DNA of 42,447 nucleotides from an uncultured Pseudomonadota bacterium (lineage in GTDB: Bacteria > Myxococcota_A > UBA796 > SXON01), in contig CAIMSU010000308.1 of assembly GCA_903844155.1 (NCBI GenBank), positions 1 through 42,447 of the forward strand, read 5' to 3'. Made by a program: the position numbers and the translations under genes. The notes under the pieces were generated by a model. The model was not told the origin of the DNA, searched no databases, and saw nothing but the letters and a program-made list of their open reading frames with translations. Shown here in pieces: positions 5,819-32,446 of this stretch. Within the stretch, counting starts at the first letter, position 1; every line of letters starts with the position of its first letter.

Positions 5819-7740
5819 CTGTACTCGGCGAGCCAGGCCTGGAACATCAGCACGTTCCAGAGCTGGTAGCCCCAGTCGCGGCGGCCGGAAAGGTGCTCCT
5901 CCCAGCGAAGCCGGATCGGACCCGGACGCAGGTAGCCCTCGCGCAGCAACCGCCCCTCGTCGAGCAACGCCTCCGCCCAGTCGCGCAGCGGCCCGCGTAG
6001 CCAGGCCCCGACGGGGATGGCAAACCCCATCTTCGGACGCTCGATCAGCGCGCGCGGGACGTGCTTGTAGAGCACCTCGCGGACGATCCACTTGCTCGTC
6101 CCGCCGCGGATCTTGAGGTGGAGGGGCAGGCGCCAGGCGAGCTCGATCACCCGCCGATCCAGGAACGGCACGCGGGTCTCCAGCGAGACCGCCATCGCCG
6201 CGCGATCGACCTTGCAAAGGATGTCGTCCGGCAGATAACTACAGGCGTCCATCGCCATCATCTGGTGTTCGATCCCGTCCAGATCCGCGACTGCCGACCA
6301 CCCGCTGGCCGTCGCAGCCTCGCCGCCGATCACGATGCTCGCCGGGTCGGCCCAGATGGAGACGAGCTGGTCGTAGAGGGCCGCGCCCGGACCCACGCGC
6401 AACGCTCCAGCCAACTTGTGCGCCTTGTACCCCGGCATTCGCAGGTGCGCCCTTCGGGGCAGCGCGGGTTGGAGCCGGTCGTAGGCGCGGTCCCATTGGT
6501 CGGGGCCGAGCACCAGCAGAGCGCGCGCGGCGGCGCGGCGCATGGGGGCTGGCACCCGCTCCAGCTTCCTCGCCCAACTGTACCGGTTGTAGCCACCGAA
6601 CAGCTCATCGCCGGCGTCACCCGAGAGGCTCACGGTCACCTTCGTCCGCGCGAGCTGGCTGACCAGGAAGGTTGGGACCTGCGAGGGGTCCGCGAACGGC
6701 TCGTCGTACATCGTCGGCAAGCACGGGATCACGGCCTGCGCCGCGGCGGACGTCACGACCAGCTCGGTGTGATCGGTGCCGAGATGGGCGGCAACGGCGC
6801 GCGCGTGGGGTGCCTCGCTGAACGCCGCCTCCTCAAAACCGATGGTGAACGTGTGGATCGGCCTGGCTGCGCGCGCCTGCATCAACGCCACAATCACAGA
6901 TGAATCAACGCCACCGGAGAGGAACGCTCCAATGGGCACATCGGACATCTGCTGGGAGGCGACGGCGTCGCCGAGGCAGGCCTCCAGCGCGGCGACCGCT
7001 TCGACATCCGAGCCGGCGAAGGGGTCGGCGAGGCCGCGTCGGGCCACGTCCACGAGCGACCAGTAGAGCCGGGGCTGGGCGGCCCTGGCCTCGTCGGCAG
7101 TGGCGGTCGGGATCGTGAGGATCGAGGCGGGGAGCAGCTTTCGCACGCCCTCCCAGATCGACAGGGGCGCCGGGATCTCGGAGTACCGCATGAACGCGGC
7201 GAGCGCGACGCGGTCGACCCTGCCGACGAAGGCGGGGTGGGCTTTCAGCGCCTTGAGCTCCGAGCCGAACAGCAGCGTGTCGCCGAACCAGCCGTAGTAG
7301 AGCGGCTTTTCGCCCATCCGGTCGCGCGAGAGCGTGAGCGTGCACGTGCGGCGATCCCACACGGCAAACGCGAACATTCCGATCGCGCTCCGGACGGTCT
7401 CCTCAACGCCCCAGGCCTCAAAGCCTGCCAGCAGCGTCTCGGTGTCCGAGTGGCCGCGGAAGGTCGGGGCCGCCGATCCAAGCTCACGGCGGAGGTCCAG
7501 GTGGTTGTAGATCTCCCCGTTGAACGCGATGACAAAACGCTCGCCCGCCGAGACCATCGGCTGGTGCCCTGCGGGCGAGAGGTCGACGATGGAGAGCCGA
7601 GCGTGCCCGAGGCCCACGGCACCCTCGCACCACACCCCCTCGTCGTCTGGCCCACGGTGTCGTAGCGCCCGCGCCATCGCGCGCACGTCACCGCCAGCGA
7701 CACCCCCAGCCAGATCCAACGCGCCGACGATTCCGCACAT
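5815..7740 (-). CDS. asnB: Asparagine synthase (glutamine-hydrolysing)
   Basis: A full-length 641-residue AsnB-family enzyme. Met is followed by Cys2 (MCGIVGALDL), the N-terminal nucleophile of the class II glutaminase domain, and the C-terminal half has the ATP-PPase P-loop SGGVDSS. It transfers glutamine-derived ammonia to a carboxylate activated as an adenylate. Members in polysaccharide loci are often not the housekeeping asparagine synthase and may amidate uronic acids. Here it lies last in the minus-strand wzc operon, 6 nt downstream of a methyltransferase gene. The domain call is secure; housekeeping versus sugar substrate is undecided. Confidence 0.9.
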   Translation of the reverse strand: MCGIVGALDLAGGVAGGDVRAMARALRHRGPDDEGVWCEGAVGLGHARLSIVDLSPAGHQPMVSAGERFVIAFNGEIYNHLDLRRELGSAAPTFRGHSDTETLLAGFEAWGVEETVRSAIGMFAFAVWDRRTCTLTLSRDRMGEKPLYYGWFGDTLLFGSELKALKAHPAFVGRVDRVALAAFMRYSEIPAPLSIWEGVRKLLPASILTIPTATADEARAAQPRLYWSLVDVARRGLADPFAGSDVEAVAALEACLGDAVASQQMSDVPIGAFLSGGVDSSVIVALMQARAARPIHTFTIGFEEAAFSEAPHARAVAAHLGTDHTELVVTSAAAQAVIPCLPTMYDEPFADPSQVPTFLVSQLARTKVTVSLSGDAGDELFGGYNRYSWARKLERVPAPMRRAAARALLVLGPDQWDRAYDRLQPALPRRAHLRMPGYKAHKLAGALRVGPGAALYDQLVSIWADPASIVIGGEAATASGWSAVADLDGIEHQMMAMDACSYLPDDILCKVDRAAMAVSLETRVPFLDRRVIELAWRLPLHLKIRGGTSKWIVREVLYKHVPRALIERPKMGFAIPVGAWLRGPLRDWAEALLDEGRLLREGYLRPGPIRLRWEEHLSGRRDWGYQLWNVLMFQAWLAEYS

Positions 7741-7746
7741 CGGCCG

Positions 7747-8607
7747 CTACTTCTTGTATCCGACGGCCGTCCAGTACGGGACCTTCTCGGAAAAGACGAT
7801 CCGCTCCAGCCCCGCCGCCTCCATCATCGCCAGCACCTCGGCCCGCGTGAACCGCTGCTCCAGCCGCGTGCCGAACCGATCGAGCGCGTCCGTCCGCATC
7901 GAATAGAACGACTTCTCCCGGTAATTGCTCAGGGGAACGCTGTGGATCGGCAGGCCGAGCCGGTCAAGGACGCGCGCGGTCCGGGCAAGGGGCCAGTAGA
8001 CCGTCGCCGCGATGAGCTGGCTGGCGGCGTACTTCGGCGCCTCCGGCAGCACCGAGATCCCGCGCCGAAACCCGTCGCTGAGCTGCCAGGCCGCCTTGTA
8101 CCAGAGGGGCTGGTTGTCGAAGCGGTAGTAGAGATAGATAAGGAACGGCGCGCCTTTCTTCAACTTTCGCACGCAAGCCGCGATGCCCGCCTGGGTATCC
8201 GGCACGTGGTGGAGCACGCCGAGCGAGTAGCCAAAATCCATCGACCCGTCGGGCAGCGGGATCGCGTCGACCGTTGCCTGGTGGAACGAGCAATTCGTGG
8301 CGTCGGACAGGTTGCGCCGGGCGACGTCGATGGCGGCGGATGGGTCGATGCAGTGGAGGTGGCCGACCCGACCGTGGACCTCCGCGGCCCACCGGCCAGA
8401 CCCGCAGCCAAGGTCAAAGCCGACAGCATCTTTCGGCAGGACCGACCACGGAAAGACGCCGAAGTACTCCTGAAAGACGGCAGCGCGCTCAGCGGCACCC
8501 ATGCCGGTCTGGTCGAAGCGCGACCACTCCGCGCCAAAATCGTCGACGACGTTCTGGTCGGCGTTCTGGGTGCCGCTGCGCGCGGCATCGTCCGAGGATT
8601 CAGGCAT
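7747..8607 (-). CDS. Class I SAM-dependent methyltransferase
   Basis: A 286-residue methyltransferase with a textbook motif I, VGFDLGCGSGRWAAEV. The acidic post-I residue follows (HCIDPSAAID), then a motif IV/V region with SLGVLHHVPDTQAG. The C-terminal third is rich in aromatic and basic residues and may bind the acceptor. Members of this kind occur in O-antigen and exopolysaccharide loci. It sits between the ligase/polymerase gene (68-nt gap) and asnB (6-nt gap) on the minus strand. A weak GGA lies 12 nt before the ATG. The acceptor cannot be told from sequence. Confidence 0.82.
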   Translation of the reverse strand: MPESSDDAARSGTQNADQNVVDDFGAEWSRFDQTGMGAAERAAVFQEYFGVFPWSVLPKDAVGFDLGCGSGRWAAEVHGRVGHLHCIDPSAAIDVARRNLSDATNCSFHQATVDAIPLPDGSMDFGYSLGVLHHVPDTQAGIAACVRKLKKGAPFLIYLYYRFDNQPLWYKAAWQLSDGFRRGISVLPEAPKYAASQLIAATVYWPLARTARVLDRLGLPIHSVPLSNYREKSFYSMRTDALDRFGTRLEQRFTRAEVLAMMEAAGLERIVFSEKVPYWTAVGYKK

Positions 8608-26691: not shown

Positions 26692-27378
26692 GTGATCGAT
26701 CCCCTCTCAGCCATCCGCCTGTCCCTCCTTGTGGCGACGTTCGCCACCCTCGCGGGCCTTCCCCCCGCCGTCGGCGTCGGCTGGCTCCTGGCCCGCAGGT
26801 CGTTCGCCGGGAAATCCCTGCTCTCAGCCCTGCTGATGGCGCCGCTGGTGCTGCCACCGGTCGTGACCGGCCTGTTGCTGCTTCGGGCGTTCGGACACGA
26901 CACCCTCGCCGGGAAAGCCCTGGCCGCCGTGGATCTGCCGGTACCGTTCACCCTTTTCGGCGCGATGATCGCCGCCTGGGTCGTCGGATTCCCGCTCATG
27001 GTCCTGAGCGCTCGCACGGCGTTTGAGTCGGTGGATCCTCGCTTTGAGAGCGTCTCGGCGGCGCTGGGAGTGCGCCCTCTGCGGACGTTCTGGCGTACCA
27101 CGCTGCCGCTCGCGGCCCCCGGGTTGTGCGCTGGGGCGGTGTTGACGTTCGCCCGGGCGCTTGGGGAGTTCGGTGCGACTGCGATCGTCGCGGGGAACAT
27201 GGAAGGAAGGACAAGGACAATCGCGCTGGCGGTGTACTCGCTCCTGGATGAGCCGAACGGGGAGCCACAGATCCGCGTTCTGCTCGTCGCCAGCCTGACG
27301 ATCTCGGTGGCGGCCTTGTACGGCTGGGAACGCCTGAATCGCTGGCAACGTCGCCGGCTGGACGTGGCCCATGGCTGA
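26692..27378 (+). CDS. modB: Molybdate ABC transporter permease
   Basis: A 228-residue inner-membrane permease with about five hydrophobic helices. The cytoplasmic EAA-like loop reads SAALGVRPLRTFWRTTLPLAAPG. ARALGEFGATAIVAGNMEGRTRTIALAVY is, across its length, the signature of ModB and distinguishes it from sulfate permeases. It forms the channel for molybdate, or tungstate, with the ATPase encoded next. The GTG start follows a likely promoter, and its end overlaps modC by 8 nt. The periplasmic binding protein ModA is not encoded in the window. Confidence 0.9.
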   Translation: MIDPLSAIRLSLLVATFATLAGLPPAVGVGWLLARRSFAGKSLLSALLMAPLVLPPVVTGLLLLRAFGHDTLAGKALAAVDLPVPFTLFGAMIAAWVVGFPLMVLSARTAFESVDPRFESVSAALGVRPLRTFWRTTLPLAAPGLCAGAVLTFARALGEFGATAIVAGNMEGRTRTIALAVYSLLDEPNGEPQIRVLLVASLTISVAALYGWERLNRWQRRRLDVAHG

Positions 27379-27997
27379 GGACGGCATCCTCGTCGACGTG
27401 CGCGTGCACGACGGGCGACACCACCTGAAGCTGGCGACGACGGCAGCGTGCGTGGGCGTGTGCGGGCCGTCGGGCGCGGGAAAAAGCACGTTGTTGCGGG
27501 TGCTTGCGGGGGTGGAGCCGGGAGTGACGGGGACGGTGCGGGCGCTCGGCGAAACCTGGCTGGGACCCGCGCTCGTCGTGCCGGCGTGGCGGCGGGGAGT
27601 GGGCTGGGTGCCGCAGGACGCCCTGCTCTTTCCGCACCTGAACGTGCGACAGAACCTCGACTATTCGCGGCGATCCGGGGCCGAGGAGTGCCTGGGGATC
27701 GCCCGGTTGTTGGGCGTGAGTGCCCTCCTCGACCGGGCGCCGCGCAACCTCTCGGGTGGAGAGCGACAACGGGTCGCGCTCGGGCGCGCCCTCCTCGCCC
27801 GGCCCAGGCTCCTGCTCCTCGATGAGCCGTTTTCCGCGTTGGACCGAAACCTTCGCGCCCGCCTGGCCGCCGATGTCGCGGCGTACTGCAAGGACCGGGC
27901 CCTCCCCGTTGTCCTCGCCTCGCACGATGACCCCGACCTCACCGCGTTCAACGCCGAACGATGGGAATTCGTCGACGGAGTCCTGTCGCGGGGGTGA
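27371..27997 (+). CDS. modC: Molybdate ABC transporter ATPase, short form
   Basis: A 208-residue ABC ATPase. Walker A is GPSGAGKST (32-40), the Q-loop lies in WVPQDALLFPHL, the signature is LSGGERQ (127-133), and Walker B is LLLLDEP (147-153), followed by SALD and the H-switch ASHD. E. coli ModC is about 350 residues, with a C-terminal TOBE/MOP regulatory domain. That domain is absent here, so molybdate feedback at the ATPase should be missing. It overlaps modB by 8 nt and is followed 19 nt later by the first VVDPMP protein gene. Confidence 0.88.
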   Translation: MAEDGILVDVRVHDGRHHLKLATTAACVGVCGPSGAGKSTLLRVLAGVEPGVTGTVRALGETWLGPALVVPAWRRGVGWVPQDALLFPHLNVRQNLDYSRRSGAEECLGIARLLGVSALLDRAPRNLSGGERQRVALGRALLARPRLLLLDEPFSALDRNLRARLAADVAAYCKDRALPVVLASHDDPDLTAFNAERWEFVDGVLSRG

Positions 27998-28016: not shown

Positions 28017-28634
28017 ATGGCCCAACGCGTCCGCTCCCGCACCCTCGCGCACCTCGACACCCTCCTCGCGCTCACGGCGCTGGCGACCGCCTGCCACCCG
28101 CGCGAACCCGGGTACGGCGTCGTCGACCCGATGCCAACTCCCGCGCAGGGTGATCCGCCAATAACGCCAGCAAGCACCATCCCCGAGGCGTCAGGAACGA
28201 CACCGCCCCCAACCGTCGCCACCCCGCCGACGACCACTCCGATCACGGCGCCGCCAGACGTCGGCTACGGCGTCGTCGACCCGATGCCCCCACCGGCCGA
28301 TTGCACCACCTTTCCGGAGGCGGTCTACGCCTACGCAAGTTGGGAGGACGGGGCGATCAACCTGACGGTATCTGCGCAGATGCGATATCGGGGCCACGCT
28401 TCGCTCGGAACGTCGCTGCCGACGATCGCGCACGCGACCGTGACCGCGCCAAGCATCACGTCATCCGCCTGGATGATGAAGCTGACGCCGGACGGCTCCG
28501 TACACACGCTCAGCTTTGAGTTGACCGGGACCTGCGAGAACGCTCCGGCGACGGCAAGAGTTCGCCTGAATTGGGAGGGCACGCTGACGAAAGATTCGCG
28601 CATCGAGGCGCTCGTCGTCGCGGACGGCAAGTAG
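28017..28634 (+). CDS. Exported protein with two GYGVVDPMP motifs (candidate radical SAM substrate)
   Basis: A 205-residue protein I do not recognise as a named family. Residues 13-26 form a hydrophobic segment ending LATAC, a plausible though imperfect lipobox at Cys26. GYGVVDPMP occurs at residues 32-40 and again at 83-91, separated by a Pro/Thr-rich linker. The second copy runs into PPPADCTTF, and a ~110-residue beta-rich domain follows, with Cys96 and Cys173 conserved in the next gene's product. The protein is therefore probably anchored outside the cytoplasmic membrane. It is followed without gap by its paralogue and then by a B12-binding radical SAM gene, which suggests that the motif is the modification site. 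Confidence 0.7.
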   Translation: MAQRVRSRTLAHLDTLLALTALATACHPREPGYGVVDPMPTPAQGDPPITPASTIPEASGTTPPPTVATPPTTTPITAPPDVGYGVVDPMPPPADCTTFPEAVYAYASWEDGAINLTVSAQMRYRGHASLGTSLPTIAHATVTAPSITSSAWMMKLTPDGSVHTLSFELTGTCENAPATARVRLNWEGTLTKDSRIEALVVADGK

Positions 28635-29234
28635 ATGGCGACGCAAGGGACCGCGCGGGGCTCGACGCTTCGGCACCCGGACGCGCTGTTGGCCCTGGCG
28701 GCGCTGGCGACGGCTGCGCATGCGGGAGACGCGGACGCTGCGGACAAATCAGCGCCGAAGGCTGCGAAACCGCCCAAGGCGCCGAAGGTCGACGATTGCG
28801 GCTATTGCGTGGTGGACATGATGCCGGAGCCTGCGACGTGCACTTCGTTCGCGGACGGGATCGAGGCGCAGGCGAGCATCGCGGCGGACGGCTCGATCAA
28901 CTTCCGGGTCACCCCGCGCGGGCAGGACTACGGCGAGGGGGACGGCGCCACGCTGGATCCGGCCGCCCGGCCCGCCGTGATTCACGGAACCCTGGCCAGC
29001 GCCAGTCCTGCCGCCACGGCGCCCCCATGGATCTTCCTGGTTCAGCCGGAGCCAAAGACCCAGGTCGTCGGCCTTGTTCTGGCGGGCACCTGCAACGGGG
29101 CGCACGGCGGCGCCCAACTTGAGGCGCACTGGCAGGGCAATCTCCAGACCGAAGGCAACCTCAACGTGGTGGTACTCCCTTCTGCCGCCCCAGCGCCCGT
29201 CACCCCACCCTCCCCCGCCGGAGCCAAGCCATGA
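28635..29234 (+). CDS. Exported paralogue with one GYCVVDMMP motif (candidate radical SAM substrate)
   Basis: A 199-residue protein related along its length to the preceding one. Both share an N-terminal pattern of R-x3-L-x-H-x-D-x-LLAL-x-ALATA, then a low-complexity linker (here Lys/Pro/Ala). The motif is GYCVVDMMP at residues 56-64, followed by PEPATCTSF and a C-terminal domain with Cys69 and Cys153 matching the partner's Cys pair. It has Ala rather than Cys at the lipobox position, so it should be a soluble periplasmic protein cleaved near AAHA. Its ATG follows the upstream TAG directly, and its stop overlaps the radical SAM start as ATGA. Function unknown. Confidence 0.7.
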   Translation: MATQGTARGSTLRHPDALLALAALATAAHAGDADAADKSAPKAAKPPKAPKVDDCGYCVVDMMPEPATCTSFADGIEAQASIAADGSINFRVTPRGQDYGEGDGATLDPAARPAVIHGTLASASPAATAPPWIFLVQPEPKTQVVGLVLAGTCNGAHGGAQLEAHWQGNLQTEGNLNVVVLPSAAPAPVTPPSPAGAKP

Positions 29235-30916
29235 AGATCACCCTCGTCGGCCCCGAAATCGAAGAAAACCTCTCGCTCCGCTACCTCGCCGCGTCGCTGT
29301 CCGCGGCCGGATATTCGGCGGAGATCGTGCCCCTGAACCGGACCGCGGACTTCGGGGTTGTGCTCGAATACCTCGTGGCGTCGGCGCCCGACCTGATCGG
29401 CCTCTCGCTCGCGTTCCAGTGGCGTGCGAAGGACTTTTTCGCCCTCGCGGTCGCGCTGCGTCAGCGCGGCTGGACCGGGCATCTGACCGCCGGCGGGCAC
29501 TTTGGGACGTTCGCCTGCAAGGACATCCTCGAAGAATTCCCGGAGATCGACACGATCTGCCGACAGGAGTCTGAGGAGACGCTGGTCAAACTTGTGCACG
29601 CCGTCGACGCGGGTGAGAATTATCAGTCCATCGCCGGCCTCGCCTTCCACGACCGCGACGGCAACGTGCAGCTCACCTGCCTGCCCGAGCTGCCGGACGT
29701 CTCACGCCTCCCCTTCCCCGACCGTCGCGGTGCTCCCGCGGCCTGCTTTGACCACCGGATCTCCCCGCTCGTCGGAAGCCGGGGTTGCTACGCGAATTGC
29801 TCGTTCTGCTGCATCGCCGCCTGGCACGAACAGACCCTCCCCGGCAAGCGCTACCGCGTGCGCGAGCCCGACGACATCGCCGCCGAGATGGTCGCGATGC
29901 AGAAGGAGCGTGGCATCGAGATCTTCGTGTTTCACGACGACAATTTCTTCCTGCCCGGGCACCCGAAAAACCTCGCGCGCTTCAACGCCCTCGCAGACGC
30001 GCTCGAGCGGCGAGGAATCGGCAAGTACGCCACGGTCGTCAAGGCGCGGCCGACGGACGTTGATCGTGGGGTTTTTGAGGTGCTCGTCGACCGGCTGCAC
30101 TGCATCCGCTGCTACGTCGGCATCGAGACGGACGCGGACGCCGGCCTGAAGACGCTGCAGCGGTGGGCCCAGAGCAAGCACAACCACGAGGCGATCCGCA
30201 TCGTCCGGGAGCTTGGCCTGTACGTCTGCTTCAACCTGCTGATGTTCGATCCCGACACCACGCTCGACGACCTGGAGCGCAACATCGCGTTCATCGCCTC
30301 GGCAGGTGACTATCCGCATAACTTTGGACGGGTCGAGCTCTACGCGGGCACGCCCTTGCTCGCGCGCATGCAGAAGGAAGGGCGCGTGCGCGGGGACTGG
30401 CTACAATGGGACTACGATCTCGGTTCGCCCGAAGTCGAGCGCGTTTTTCGCATGGCGATGCGCGCCTTTCACGCCCGAAACTTTGGGCCCGACGCGCTCA
30501 ACAACCGCATCATGGGCACCCGGTTTGACCTTGAGGTCGCGCGCAAGTTTCACGACGACGTCTACGACCCCGCCTGGAGCGACGAGGGCCGCAGGCTGAC
30601 CCAGGCCCTCGCGGACGACACTGCCGCCGCCCTCACCGCGATCGTCCAGCGCGTGCGCACCACCGCGCTGCCGGCCAACAATACTGACGACGACGCCTTC
30701 GCCGACGACCTTGCCTCCACCCGTAGAGCCGTCGAGGACCACATCCGGGCAGGTGCGATCCGCCTCGCCCGGACCATGCGCGAGGCGATCGGCCAGGGGC
30801 AACCGCTCACCGACATCGGGGACCGCGTCGCCACCCCCCTGCAAACGCAACGCCCTTCGCCAGCAGAGGCCGGCCGTTCCCTGGCGACGGGGGAGGCGTT
30901 TCTGCCTGCACGGTGA
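29231..30916 (+). CDS. Cobalamin-binding-domain radical SAM enzyme
   Basis: A 561-residue protein. Residues 1-140 form a Rossmann-like B12-binding domain (ITLVGPEIEENLSLRYLAASL and IGLSLAFQ). The canonical DxHxxG lower-ligand motif is not evident, as in many class B radical SAM methylases. The [4Fe-4S] cluster motif CxxxCxxC is Cys186, Cys190, Cys193 in SRGCYANCSFC. An SAM-barrel follows with FVFHDDNFF, YVGIETDADAGL and NLLMFDPDTTLDD. The last ~150 residues are helical and of unknown role. Such enzymes often C-methylate unreactive carbons. ATGA overlap with the VVDPMP gene argues for a functional link. Confidence 0.9.
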   Translation: MKITLVGPEIEENLSLRYLAASLSAAGYSAEIVPLNRTADFGVVLEYLVASAPDLIGLSLAFQWRAKDFFALAVALRQRGWTGHLTAGGHFGTFACKDILEEFPEIDTICRQESEETLVKLVHAVDAGENYQSIAGLAFHDRDGNVQLTCLPELPDVSRLPFPDRRGAPAACFDHRISPLVGSRGCYANCSFCCIAAWHEQTLPGKRYRVREPDDIAAEMVAMQKERGIEIFVFHDDNFFLPGHPKNLARFNALADALERRGIGKYATVVKARPTDVDRGVFEVLVDRLHCIRCYVGIETDADAGLKTLQRWAQSKHNHEAIRIVRELGLYVCFNLLMFDPDTTLDDLERNIAFIASAGDYPHNFGRVELYAGTPLLARMQKEGRVRGDWLQWDYDLGSPEVERVFRMAMRAFHARNFGPDALNNRIMGTRFDLEVARKFHDDVYDPAWSDEGRRLTQALADDTAAALTAIVQRVRTTALPANNTDDDAFADDLASTRRAVEDHIRAGAIRLARTMREAIGQGQPLTDIGDRVATPLQTQRPSPAEAGRSLATGEAFLPAR

Positions 30917-30973: not shown

Positions 30974-32446
30974 GTGTCCCGATCGCCCCTGCTCATCACC
31001 CTCCTCGGCGCCGCCCTTCCGCTCTACTCCGGCTGCGCGCTTGGTATCGAAGACAACATCAAGCACACCGACACCGCCGGGACCTCCGACTGCGGCCCCA
31101 GCGAGATCCCGTACGACGGCGTCGACAATGACTGCGACCCATCAACGCCCGACGACGATCTCGACGGCGACGGCCACAACGCGCTGGTCACCGGCGGCGA
31201 CGACTGCGATGACACAAACCCCGACGTGTCGCCTGGTGTCGCCGAGATCCCGTACGATGGCCTCGACAACGACTGTGACCCGGGTACTCCGGACGACGAC
31301 CTGGACGGCGACGGGACGAACTCGACGGTCACAGGCGGCACCGACTGTGATGACAGCAACCCCGATGTGTACCCGGGCGCCGCCGAGATCTGCAACGGCC
31401 TCGATGACAACTGTGACGGCTCCATCGATGGACCCGACTCAGTGGACGCGCCGATCTGGTACGCCGACCTCGACGCTGATGGCTACGGCGACCCAAACGG
31501 CACGATCACCGCCTGCAACCCGCCTCCGGGCTTCGTGAGCGACGCCACCGACTGCGACGACACGAGCGACGCCGTGAATCCGGCCGCTACCGAGATCTGC
31601 AACGGGATCGACGACAATTGCGATGGTACAACGGACGACGTGGCCTGTGGTGGCGGGTATGGGGGGCACCGCATCGACAAGGGCGGGGACTACTACTACG
31701 CGCTCTACAACGACAAGGGGTTCGGCATCCTTGGCGCCTCGGACTGGTACGGCTCGTCCGACGCCGCCAGCGCGCCGGAGGGCGTGACATGGAACGAGGA
31801 TCAAAGCACGTTCTACTACAACGACCTGGTGGGCGATGTGTTCATGCAGATGGAGCCCTTTGGGGCGTCGTCCACGAAAGTCGGGACCTTCAGCCTCGGG
31901 CAGATCGGCGGCGGAGTCACGCTGGAGGGGAAATACTACGTCGGCGACTACAACGGCGGGAACATCTACCAGATGGACCTGACGACGGGCGCCACCAGCC
32001 TCTACGCGAGCCTGGGATCAACCGCCTGCAAGCCGTACTTTGGCAACAACTCGATGTCCATCGACAGCGATGGCACGGTGTACGCGGCCTCCAGCTGTGG
32101 CATCGTCGTCTACACGCCGACCGCCGAGGCCACCATGCTGAACAGCGTGTCCGGGCTGATGTCCATCACGGCGATGGACGCCGACAACGAGCTGTACAGC
32201 CTCGACAGCGCGGGGAACATCGTCCACTTCGACAAAGCGAGCGGGGCGGCCCTTGGCCACGTGACGATCGGCACCGCCCCATCTACAACCTGGACGATGG
32301 CGGTGGACGAGAACGGAGATTTCATCGTCAACTACTGGGGTGAACAGCGGATCTTCTCGCACGTCAACGGGGCGACGCTCAAGACCTGGGAGGCGTCCAC
32401 GTACTACCCGGCGACCTCGGGGTATTACTGGTACGTCACGTTCTGA
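30974..32446 (+). CDS. Lipoprotein with MopE-like Asp/Cys repeats and a beta-propeller-like domain
   Basis: A 490-residue exported lipoprotein. The signal peptide ends LYSGC with the lipidated Cys at 21. Residues 40-225 contain four repeats of the MopE/putative metal-binding type, for example DGVDNDCDPSTPDDDLDGDG, TDCDDSNPDVYPGAAEIC and NGLDDNCDG; the regular Asp and Cys are expected to bind Ca2+ or copper and form disulfides. Residues about 231-490 repeat beta-rich blades with Tyr/Gly/Asp (YYVGDYNGGNIYQMD, FIVNYWGEQRIFSH), resembling an NHL/SMP-30-like propeller. Such proteins are abundant on myxobacterial surfaces. The ligand is unknown. The start is GTG with a good Shine-Dalgarno. Confidence 0.82.
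   Translation: MSRSPLLITLLGAALPLYSGCALGIEDNIKHTDTAGTSDCGPSEIPYDGVDNDCDPSTPDDDLDGDGHNALVTGGDDCDDTNPDVSPGVAEIPYDGLDNDCDPGTPDDDLDGDGTNSTVTGGTDCDDSNPDVYPGAAEICNGLDDNCDGSIDGPDSVDAPIWYADLDADGYGDPNGTITACNPPPGFVSDATDCDDTSDAVNPAATEICNGIDDNCDGTTDDVACGGGYGGHRIDKGGDYYYALYNDKGFGILGASDWYGSSDAASAPEGVTWNEDQSTFYYNDLVGDVFMQMEPFGASSTKVGTFSLGQIGGGVTLEGKYYVGDYNGGNIYQMDLTTGATSLYASLGSTACKPYFGNNSMSIDSDGTVYAASSCGIVVYTPTAEATMLNSVSGLMSITAMDADNELYSLDSAGNIVHFDKASGAALGHVTIGTAPSTTWTMAVDENGDFIVNYWGEQRIFSHVNGATLKTWEASTYYPATSGYYWYVTF

Follow-up and report, generated by a model that had tools for sequence, protein, structure and literature searches.

The window analysed here is a 42,447-nt stretch (contig CAIMSU010000308.1, positions 1 to 42,447, GenBank assembly GCA_903844155.1) from an uncultured Pseudomonadota bacterium that GTDB places in Myxococcota_A. 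Within it, three adjacent genes encode two motif-bearing proteins and a cobalamin-binding radical S-adenosylmethionine (SAM) enzyme (Table 1). The two motif genes are separated by 0 nt and the second overlaps the enzyme gene by ATGA; these reading frames, the enzyme and the spacing all lie where an earlier sequence-only reading of the contig had put them. The first motif protein is built, in order, of a leader (RSRTLAHLDTLL), a hydrophobic region ending in ATAC (lipobox-like), a motif copy, a low-complexity linker, a second motif copy and an immunoglobulin-like (Ig-like) domain, and the second lacks the lipobox-like Cys and is of the AxA type. Neither protein has a match in Pfam or NCBIfam. 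Related enzymes elsewhere are mostly either paired with such motif proteins or fused to motif arrays, and we propose that enzyme and motif probably form a system resembling those of ribosomally synthesized and post-translationally modified peptides (RiPPs), in which the enzyme would alter the motif before export.

Table 1. Features of the motif-protein and enzyme locus (positions within the window).
Feature	Position	Strand	Basis
Motif protein 1, precursor-like, 205 aa	28017..28634	+	Open reading frame and sequence
Conserved leader element R-x-R-T/V-x-x-H-L-x-x-L-L, protein 1	28032..28067	+	Alignment of 19 proteins
Signal-peptide-like hydrophobic stretch with Ala-Cys end (lipobox-like), protein 1	28062..28094	+	Sequence
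Motif copy 1, GYGVVDPMP, protein 1	28110..28136	+	Sequence
Motif copy 2, GYGVVDPMP, then PPADC, protein 1	28263..28289	+	Sequence
Motif protein 2, precursor-like, 199 aa, AxA-type signal-like N-terminus	28635..29234	+	
Motif copy 3, GYCVVDMMP, then EPATC, protein 2	28800..28826	+	Sequence
Ig-like beta-sandwich domain, protein 2	28842..29189	+	AlphaFold2 model, pLDDT mostly >80
Cobalamin-binding radical SAM enzyme, 561 aa, candidate modifying enzyme	29231..30916	+	PF02310, PF04055, OxsB profile
B12-binding domain of the enzyme	29261..29593	+	PF02310, residues 11-121
CxxxCxxC (CYANCSFC), [4Fe-4S] cluster site of the enzyme	29786..29809	+	Sequence; cysteines invariant in alignments

The window enzyme has an N-terminal B12-binding domain (PF02310, 48.6 bits against a cut-off of 32.1) followed by a radical SAM domain (PF04055, 43.9 bits against 29.5) with an intact CYANCSFC, which is the architecture of class B (cobalamin-dependent) radical SAM enzymes and agrees with the earlier assignment. 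Enzymes of this class form C-C bonds on unactivated carbons. No NCBIfam equivalog model reached its cut-off: the best scores were to BchE (98 against 481), HpnR (86 against 650) and the RiPP enzyme ApyD (NF050148, 75.2 bits against 750), and the scores to rSAM_ocin_1 (TIGR03975, 45 bits against 281.85) and to the CUAEP/CCAEP-tail family (NF040546, 42 bits against 500, with a different tail) were also far below. Therefore no reaction can be transferred to the enzyme, and the scores support its placement outside every characterised family among those scored. The closest profile match is to OxsB (1.4e-19). An AlphaFold2 model of a fused relative (L079; predicted local distance difference test score, pLDDT, 86) likewise matches OxsB best (Z 25.3), followed by MgmA (Z 23.4), CysS (Z 23.1) and TsrM (Z 22.7), and MgmA, labelled methyl-coenzyme M reductase glutamine methylase in this comparison, acts on a protein.

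Relatives of the enzyme occur in 35 of 379 genomes of the phylum at E<=1e-60, and a scan of GTDB genomes gave 80 loci. In a maximum-likelihood tree, of the kind that the sequence-only reading had called for, the window enzyme groups with other stand-alone ("split") enzymes; their clade has 30 members (support 98/95) and is surrounded by 45 enzymes that are extended far beyond the C-terminus of the split form. Two rows within the extended clades were scored as split, both being cut by contig ends. The family spans Myxococcota, Acidobacteriota, Planctomycetota, Verrucomicrobiota and others. A selenocysteine reading of TGA inside three homologs was considered and rejected, the codon being an ordinary stop near the end of each match.

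The surroundings of 32 split loci were read, two of them from the source genome (the window and a second copy), and a motif protein adjoins the enzyme in 30; the pairing suggested by the sequence-only reading is specific and recurrent. At one of the two exceptions (L043) the contig ends 184 nt after the enzyme gene and a leader fragment is still visible; the other is weighed below. Most motif genes overlap the end of the enzyme gene or start no more than about 50 nt from its stop codon; at L045, for example, the enzyme gene runs from 6001 to 7629 and the motif gene from 7629 to 8165. At two loci, the window and the closely related L037, the motif genes lie 5' of the enzyme. A tandem run at L055 holds up to 5 precursor-like genes. 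Further motif genes were found beyond the first listing, with TYAVVDPMPPPAQC at L067 (near 7974) and GYMVVDPIPPPA at L055 (near 2134), and tandem precursor sets are therefore commoner than counted. No conserved third gene was recognised by eye in the neighbourhoods listed. The second copy in the source genome (L029, contig C355, 7813-10516) is 64-65% identical to the window enzyme and is followed by two motif-type proteins, one carrying CIYGTVDMMPEPVQC and the other a degenerate LYGCDHAPAP.

The conserved core of the motif reads x-V-[V/C]-D-[P/M]-[L/M]-P-x-P and follows the signal-peptide-like segment. Across 42 copies the Asp and the position-9 Pro never vary (42/42 each), 37 copies have the first Val and 39 have V or C at the second position; at L063-L065 the motif takes the form AVDPxPPP or similar. 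The motif proteins average 20% column identity over the whole alignment, and the motif is near-invariant between flanks that cannot be aligned, in line with the drift that the sequence-only reading had expected of the linker. The GYGVVDPMP string on which that reading was built is indeed not a chance occurrence, but its GY belongs to one subclade only. GY before the core marks one motif subtype and PxVC the other, and the two track two enzyme subclades: of the 11 loci in one subclade 10 have a Cys-before-Asp motif, and of the 14 in the other none does (Fisher p 3e-6, a value that overstates the evidence because motif and enzyme genes are linked).

The motif is also specific to these loci. In the 30 split loci, 35 motif sites lie in linked precursor-like open reading frames and 1 elsewhere in about 514,000 aa of six-frame open reading frames, after two sites first listed as elsewhere were reassigned by sequence to further precursor-like genes. 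A leader-plus-motif profile run against the 379 genomes gave 8 matches at E<1e-6, in 6 genomes, all beside the enzyme; motif proteins that are widespread without an enzyme, which the sequence-only reading had named as evidence against itself, were looked for in these genomes and did not appear. The DNA pattern YGVVDP[M/L/I]P gave 11 matches and its reversed control 0. Seven of the 11 are at enzyme loci, 1 is in a motif gene of genome G285 and 3 are in unrelated open reading frames; two of these last, both YGVVDPIP, sit in frames that read as pyridoxal-enzyme-like, the third in a frame without a coding signature, and all three were set aside as chance.

The N-terminal leader of the motif proteins follows R-x-R-[T/V]-x-x-H-[L/M]-x-x-L-L, with the first R invariant and H-L-x-x-L-L common among the 19 aligned proteins. 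Signal peptides were assigned by pattern and visual inspection, with regular-expression artefacts such as that in window protein 2 corrected, and in about 31 of 37 motif proteins the hydrophobic stretch ends in a small residue and Cys, with AxA in a few. The proteins that the sequence-only reading called exported do have signal-peptide-like segments and are better described as mostly lipoprotein-like, with conserved leaders and an Ig-like domain. This domain usually follows the motif, and in an AlphaFold2 model of window protein 2 its closest solved fold is that of the DsbD alpha domain (Z 8.7, root-mean-square deviation 2.6, 99 aligned residues), a middling score for a common fold. Leader and motif are mostly kept across the motif proteins and the attached domain varies: L040 has a PEGA domain in place of the Ig-like domain, L052 and L054 have the leader and two motif copies with no other domain, and L050 carries VVCDPLPPP three times head to tail. 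A Cys conserved after the motif was considered as part of the chemistry and rejected, since it is absent from L052 and L054, which lack the Ig-like domain, and from DPLP tails; because another Cys of the domain is conserved with it, it is likelier to form a structural disulfide. Motif proteins of seven loci (L038, L039, L041, L045, L046, L047 and L055) carry an extra N-terminal element, approximately L-M/L-P-E-I/V-L-P-x-P, and a similar TE-R/L-LPxP ends the enzyme instead at L063-L065. The LPxP-type element may be a second recognition site.

In the sister clades (Myxococcota, Planctomycetota, Verrucomicrobiota and others), which make up the larger half of the family, enzyme, signal-peptide-like segment and motif tail are joined in one reading frame. 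After the enzyme come a basic residue and a hydrophobic stretch rich in Ala, in many cases a Cys, and then a tail of 1-10 copies of related motifs of DPLP or EMAP type, with codon composition that stays coding-like through the tail. The tail classes follow the tree and comprise PPPDPLPPP, VVDPLPPD arrays, EMAPxP/EMVAPPP, HMCEMAPxP and ICDPMAIPPD-like variants, with tandem VVDPLPPD arrays at L165, L169 and L172-L175 and up to 10 DPxP copies at L175. DPxP or EMAP-type motifs are present in 39 of 48 distinct tails, and both exceed their expectation in residue shuffles (DPxP, 101 observed against 14.0; EMAP-type, 39 against 2.2). The profile built on split leaders and motifs also finds a weak match (E 6.6e-4) in G089, where it lies within a fused reading frame. 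Common to all motif classes is an acidic residue, Asp or Glu, with a Pro a few positions after it at most. Candidate trans substrates bearing the HMCEM string were sought in ten fused-type genomes and rejected: the five sites found, in three genomes, have positions compatible with enzyme tails. At L033, L070, L074, L082 and L085 a domain that looks TonB-C/AgmX-like by eye lies beside or between MCEMAP-type motifs; Pfam gave no support for it at L085.

Gene pairing, motif conservation and specificity, fusion architecture, the covariation of motif subtype with enzyme clade and the cobalamin radical SAM fold strongly suggest that the enzyme takes the motif as its substrate. We hypothesize that in the window the enzyme acts in trans: in the cytoplasm it would recognise the motif proteins, probably through the RxR-T/V-xx-HL-xx-LL leader, and alter the V-[V/C]-D-[P/M]-[L/M]-P-x-P motif, after which the altered protein would be exported, usually with lipidation at the Cys just before the motif. 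The edited motif would then be presented at the cell envelope by a lipoprotein that also carries an Ig-like domain. In the sister clades the same steps would occur in cis, with enzyme, signal-like segment and motif array as one polypeptide. A bolder version, which we regard as possible though somewhat doubtful, is that in most of the family the enzyme edits the array of acidic-Pro motifs of its own tail, an internal lipoprotein-type signal then carries the edited tail across the membrane and signal peptidase II frees it from the enzyme; the locus in the window would then be a split descendant of such a self-modifying form.

Several observations weigh against an enzyme-substrate system of this kind. 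First, no motif gene lies near the enzyme at the split locus L059, and no motif partner was found for some distant members (L089, L181 and L183). The loci come mostly from metagenome bins, and of the named isolates, Hyalangium versicolor (L045) and Geomonas oryzae (L089), the latter shows no motif. Second, genome G285 has a genuine-looking motif gene, cut by a contig end, and no enzyme was found elsewhere in that genome. Third, the covariation of motif subtype and enzyme subclade partly reflects the shared ancestry of linked genes. Finally, in the AlphaFold2 model of L079 the motif tail is undocked and disordered (tail pLDDT 27-39), a result uninformative about docking.

If the motif is the substrate, the most likely chemistry is C-methylation on or adjacent to the conserved acidic residue, since cobalamin radical SAM enzymes are mostly C-methyltransferases and this is the one residue common to every motif class. 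The sequence-only reading had favoured Val or Pro as candidate sites; the Asp or Glu is the better candidate. Other chemistry on the same motif, such as crosslinking, epimerisation, Asp-Pro ring formation or, in the Y-x-V-V-D subtype, a reaction at Tyr, is the strongest of the alternatives and in our view still unlikely. It draws on OxsB, which catalyses an oxidative ring contraction and is the best fold and profile match, on motif subtypes that exchange Tyr for Cys near the Asp, and on the presence of ApyD among the distant profile matches. The equivalog scores are nevertheless too far below their cut-offs for any of these reactions to be carried over, and the retention of only an acidic residue and a nearby Pro in every class disfavours a common reaction centred on Tyr or Cys.

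A role of the motif in docking or recruitment is less probable again: by binding the motif protein, or its own tail, the enzyme would be placed at the membrane and would modify something else, such as an envelope lipid, a polysaccharide or another residue of the partner. The tag is short and Pro-rich, as is typical of docking peptides, the tail lies behind a membrane-targeting segment, and several related cobalamin radical SAM families (HpnR, HpnJ and BchE) act on lipids or small molecules. Against this, the tails with up to 10 copies and the leader-plus-two-motif proteins L052 and L054 resemble substrate arrays, the motif sequence shifts with the enzyme clade, and by eye the neighbourhoods listed show no conserved third gene. 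It is very improbable that the motif is nothing more than low-complexity or structural linker before the Ig-like domain, co-inherited with a neighbouring gene: linkers are indeed Pro-rich and the conserved Cys after the motif is probably part of that domain, but the motif is near-invariant beside unalignable flanks and repeated within proteins, the same type recurs in fused tails that have no Ig-like domain and exceed shuffles several-fold, the motif is nearly absent elsewhere in the loci, and the scans of the 379 genomes at E<1e-6 found it in no unrelated lipoprotein without the enzyme.

The substrate architecture proposed here, RiPP-like in its paired genes, its conserved leader and its repeats of a core-like motif, has partial parallels. 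Borosins occur both fused (OphMA-type, with a C-terminal core) and split (SonM/SonA-type, in neighbouring genes) (PMC11285071), and the likeness is one of architecture only: borosin enzymes are alpha-N-methyltransferases without radical chemistry, whereas here a cobalamin radical SAM enzyme is linked to repeated short motifs behind a signal-peptide-like segment. Pfam scans of fused and split enzymes found no alpha-N-methyltransferase domain, and only B12-binding and Radical_SAM scored above cut-off. In DAG-RiPPs, motif modification by an MNIO enzyme can come ahead of lipoprotein export (PMC12636315). They share with the present proteins a short conserved motif, tolerance of large attached domains and a lipoprotein-type export signal, putative in the present proteins, and the variable domain behind a kept leader and motif recalls those MNIO substrates; the enzyme there is an MNIO (DUF692), and radical SAM systems go unmentioned in that work (PMC12636315).

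Among radical SAM enzymes, the cobalamin-dependent C-methyltransferases of RiPPs and proteins (TIGR03975, ApyD, MgmA and TsrM) are alike in domains and fold and differ in their substrates and in family scores far below cut-off; we know of no fused motif tails in that group. The CUAEP/CCAEP-tail family is also named for a short conserved tail motif with Cys or Sec and Pro, but the family scores only 36-56 bits against the cut-off of 500, and the tail here is long, repeated and placed behind a hydrophobic segment. In Bacteroidetes, a radical SAM gene lies beside a lipoprotein gene whose product has a short YG motif near the lipobox. That pair has a different motif and belongs to a different phylum, and its NCBIfam models matched neither the enzyme nor the motif proteins at E<=1. 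No database family was found that describes the enzyme-motif system, and the literature found, in which most subscription journals were not covered, holds no description of the motif or of radical SAM enzymes fused to motif arrays. The cis form is the most novel part of this proposed RiPP-like cobalamin radical SAM modification, and the self-modifying version, if true, would be a radical SAM counterpart of borosins coupled to lipoprotein export.

The genes flanking the three in the window were not seen at the related loci read. Directly upstream (26692-27997) are molybdate ABC transporter permease and ATPase genes, and directly downstream (30974-32446) is a gene whose secreted product contains four metal-binding motifs of MopE type (PF11617). 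The source genome (8.1 Mb) has 64 radical SAM matches, seemingly a high number.

These results define an uncharacterised cobalamin radical SAM family with an evident partner motif that is defined by sequence. The study of each such enzyme needs a known substrate, and here the genome proposes one, both in trans and in cis. The repetition of motifs in arrays allows the speculation that displayed arrays could act multivalently at the surface, for example by binding metal or in adhesion. If the proposal is true, the family would provide a radical SAM route to lipidated peptides at the cell surface, together with a natural fusion of enzyme and substrate usable for peptide engineering.

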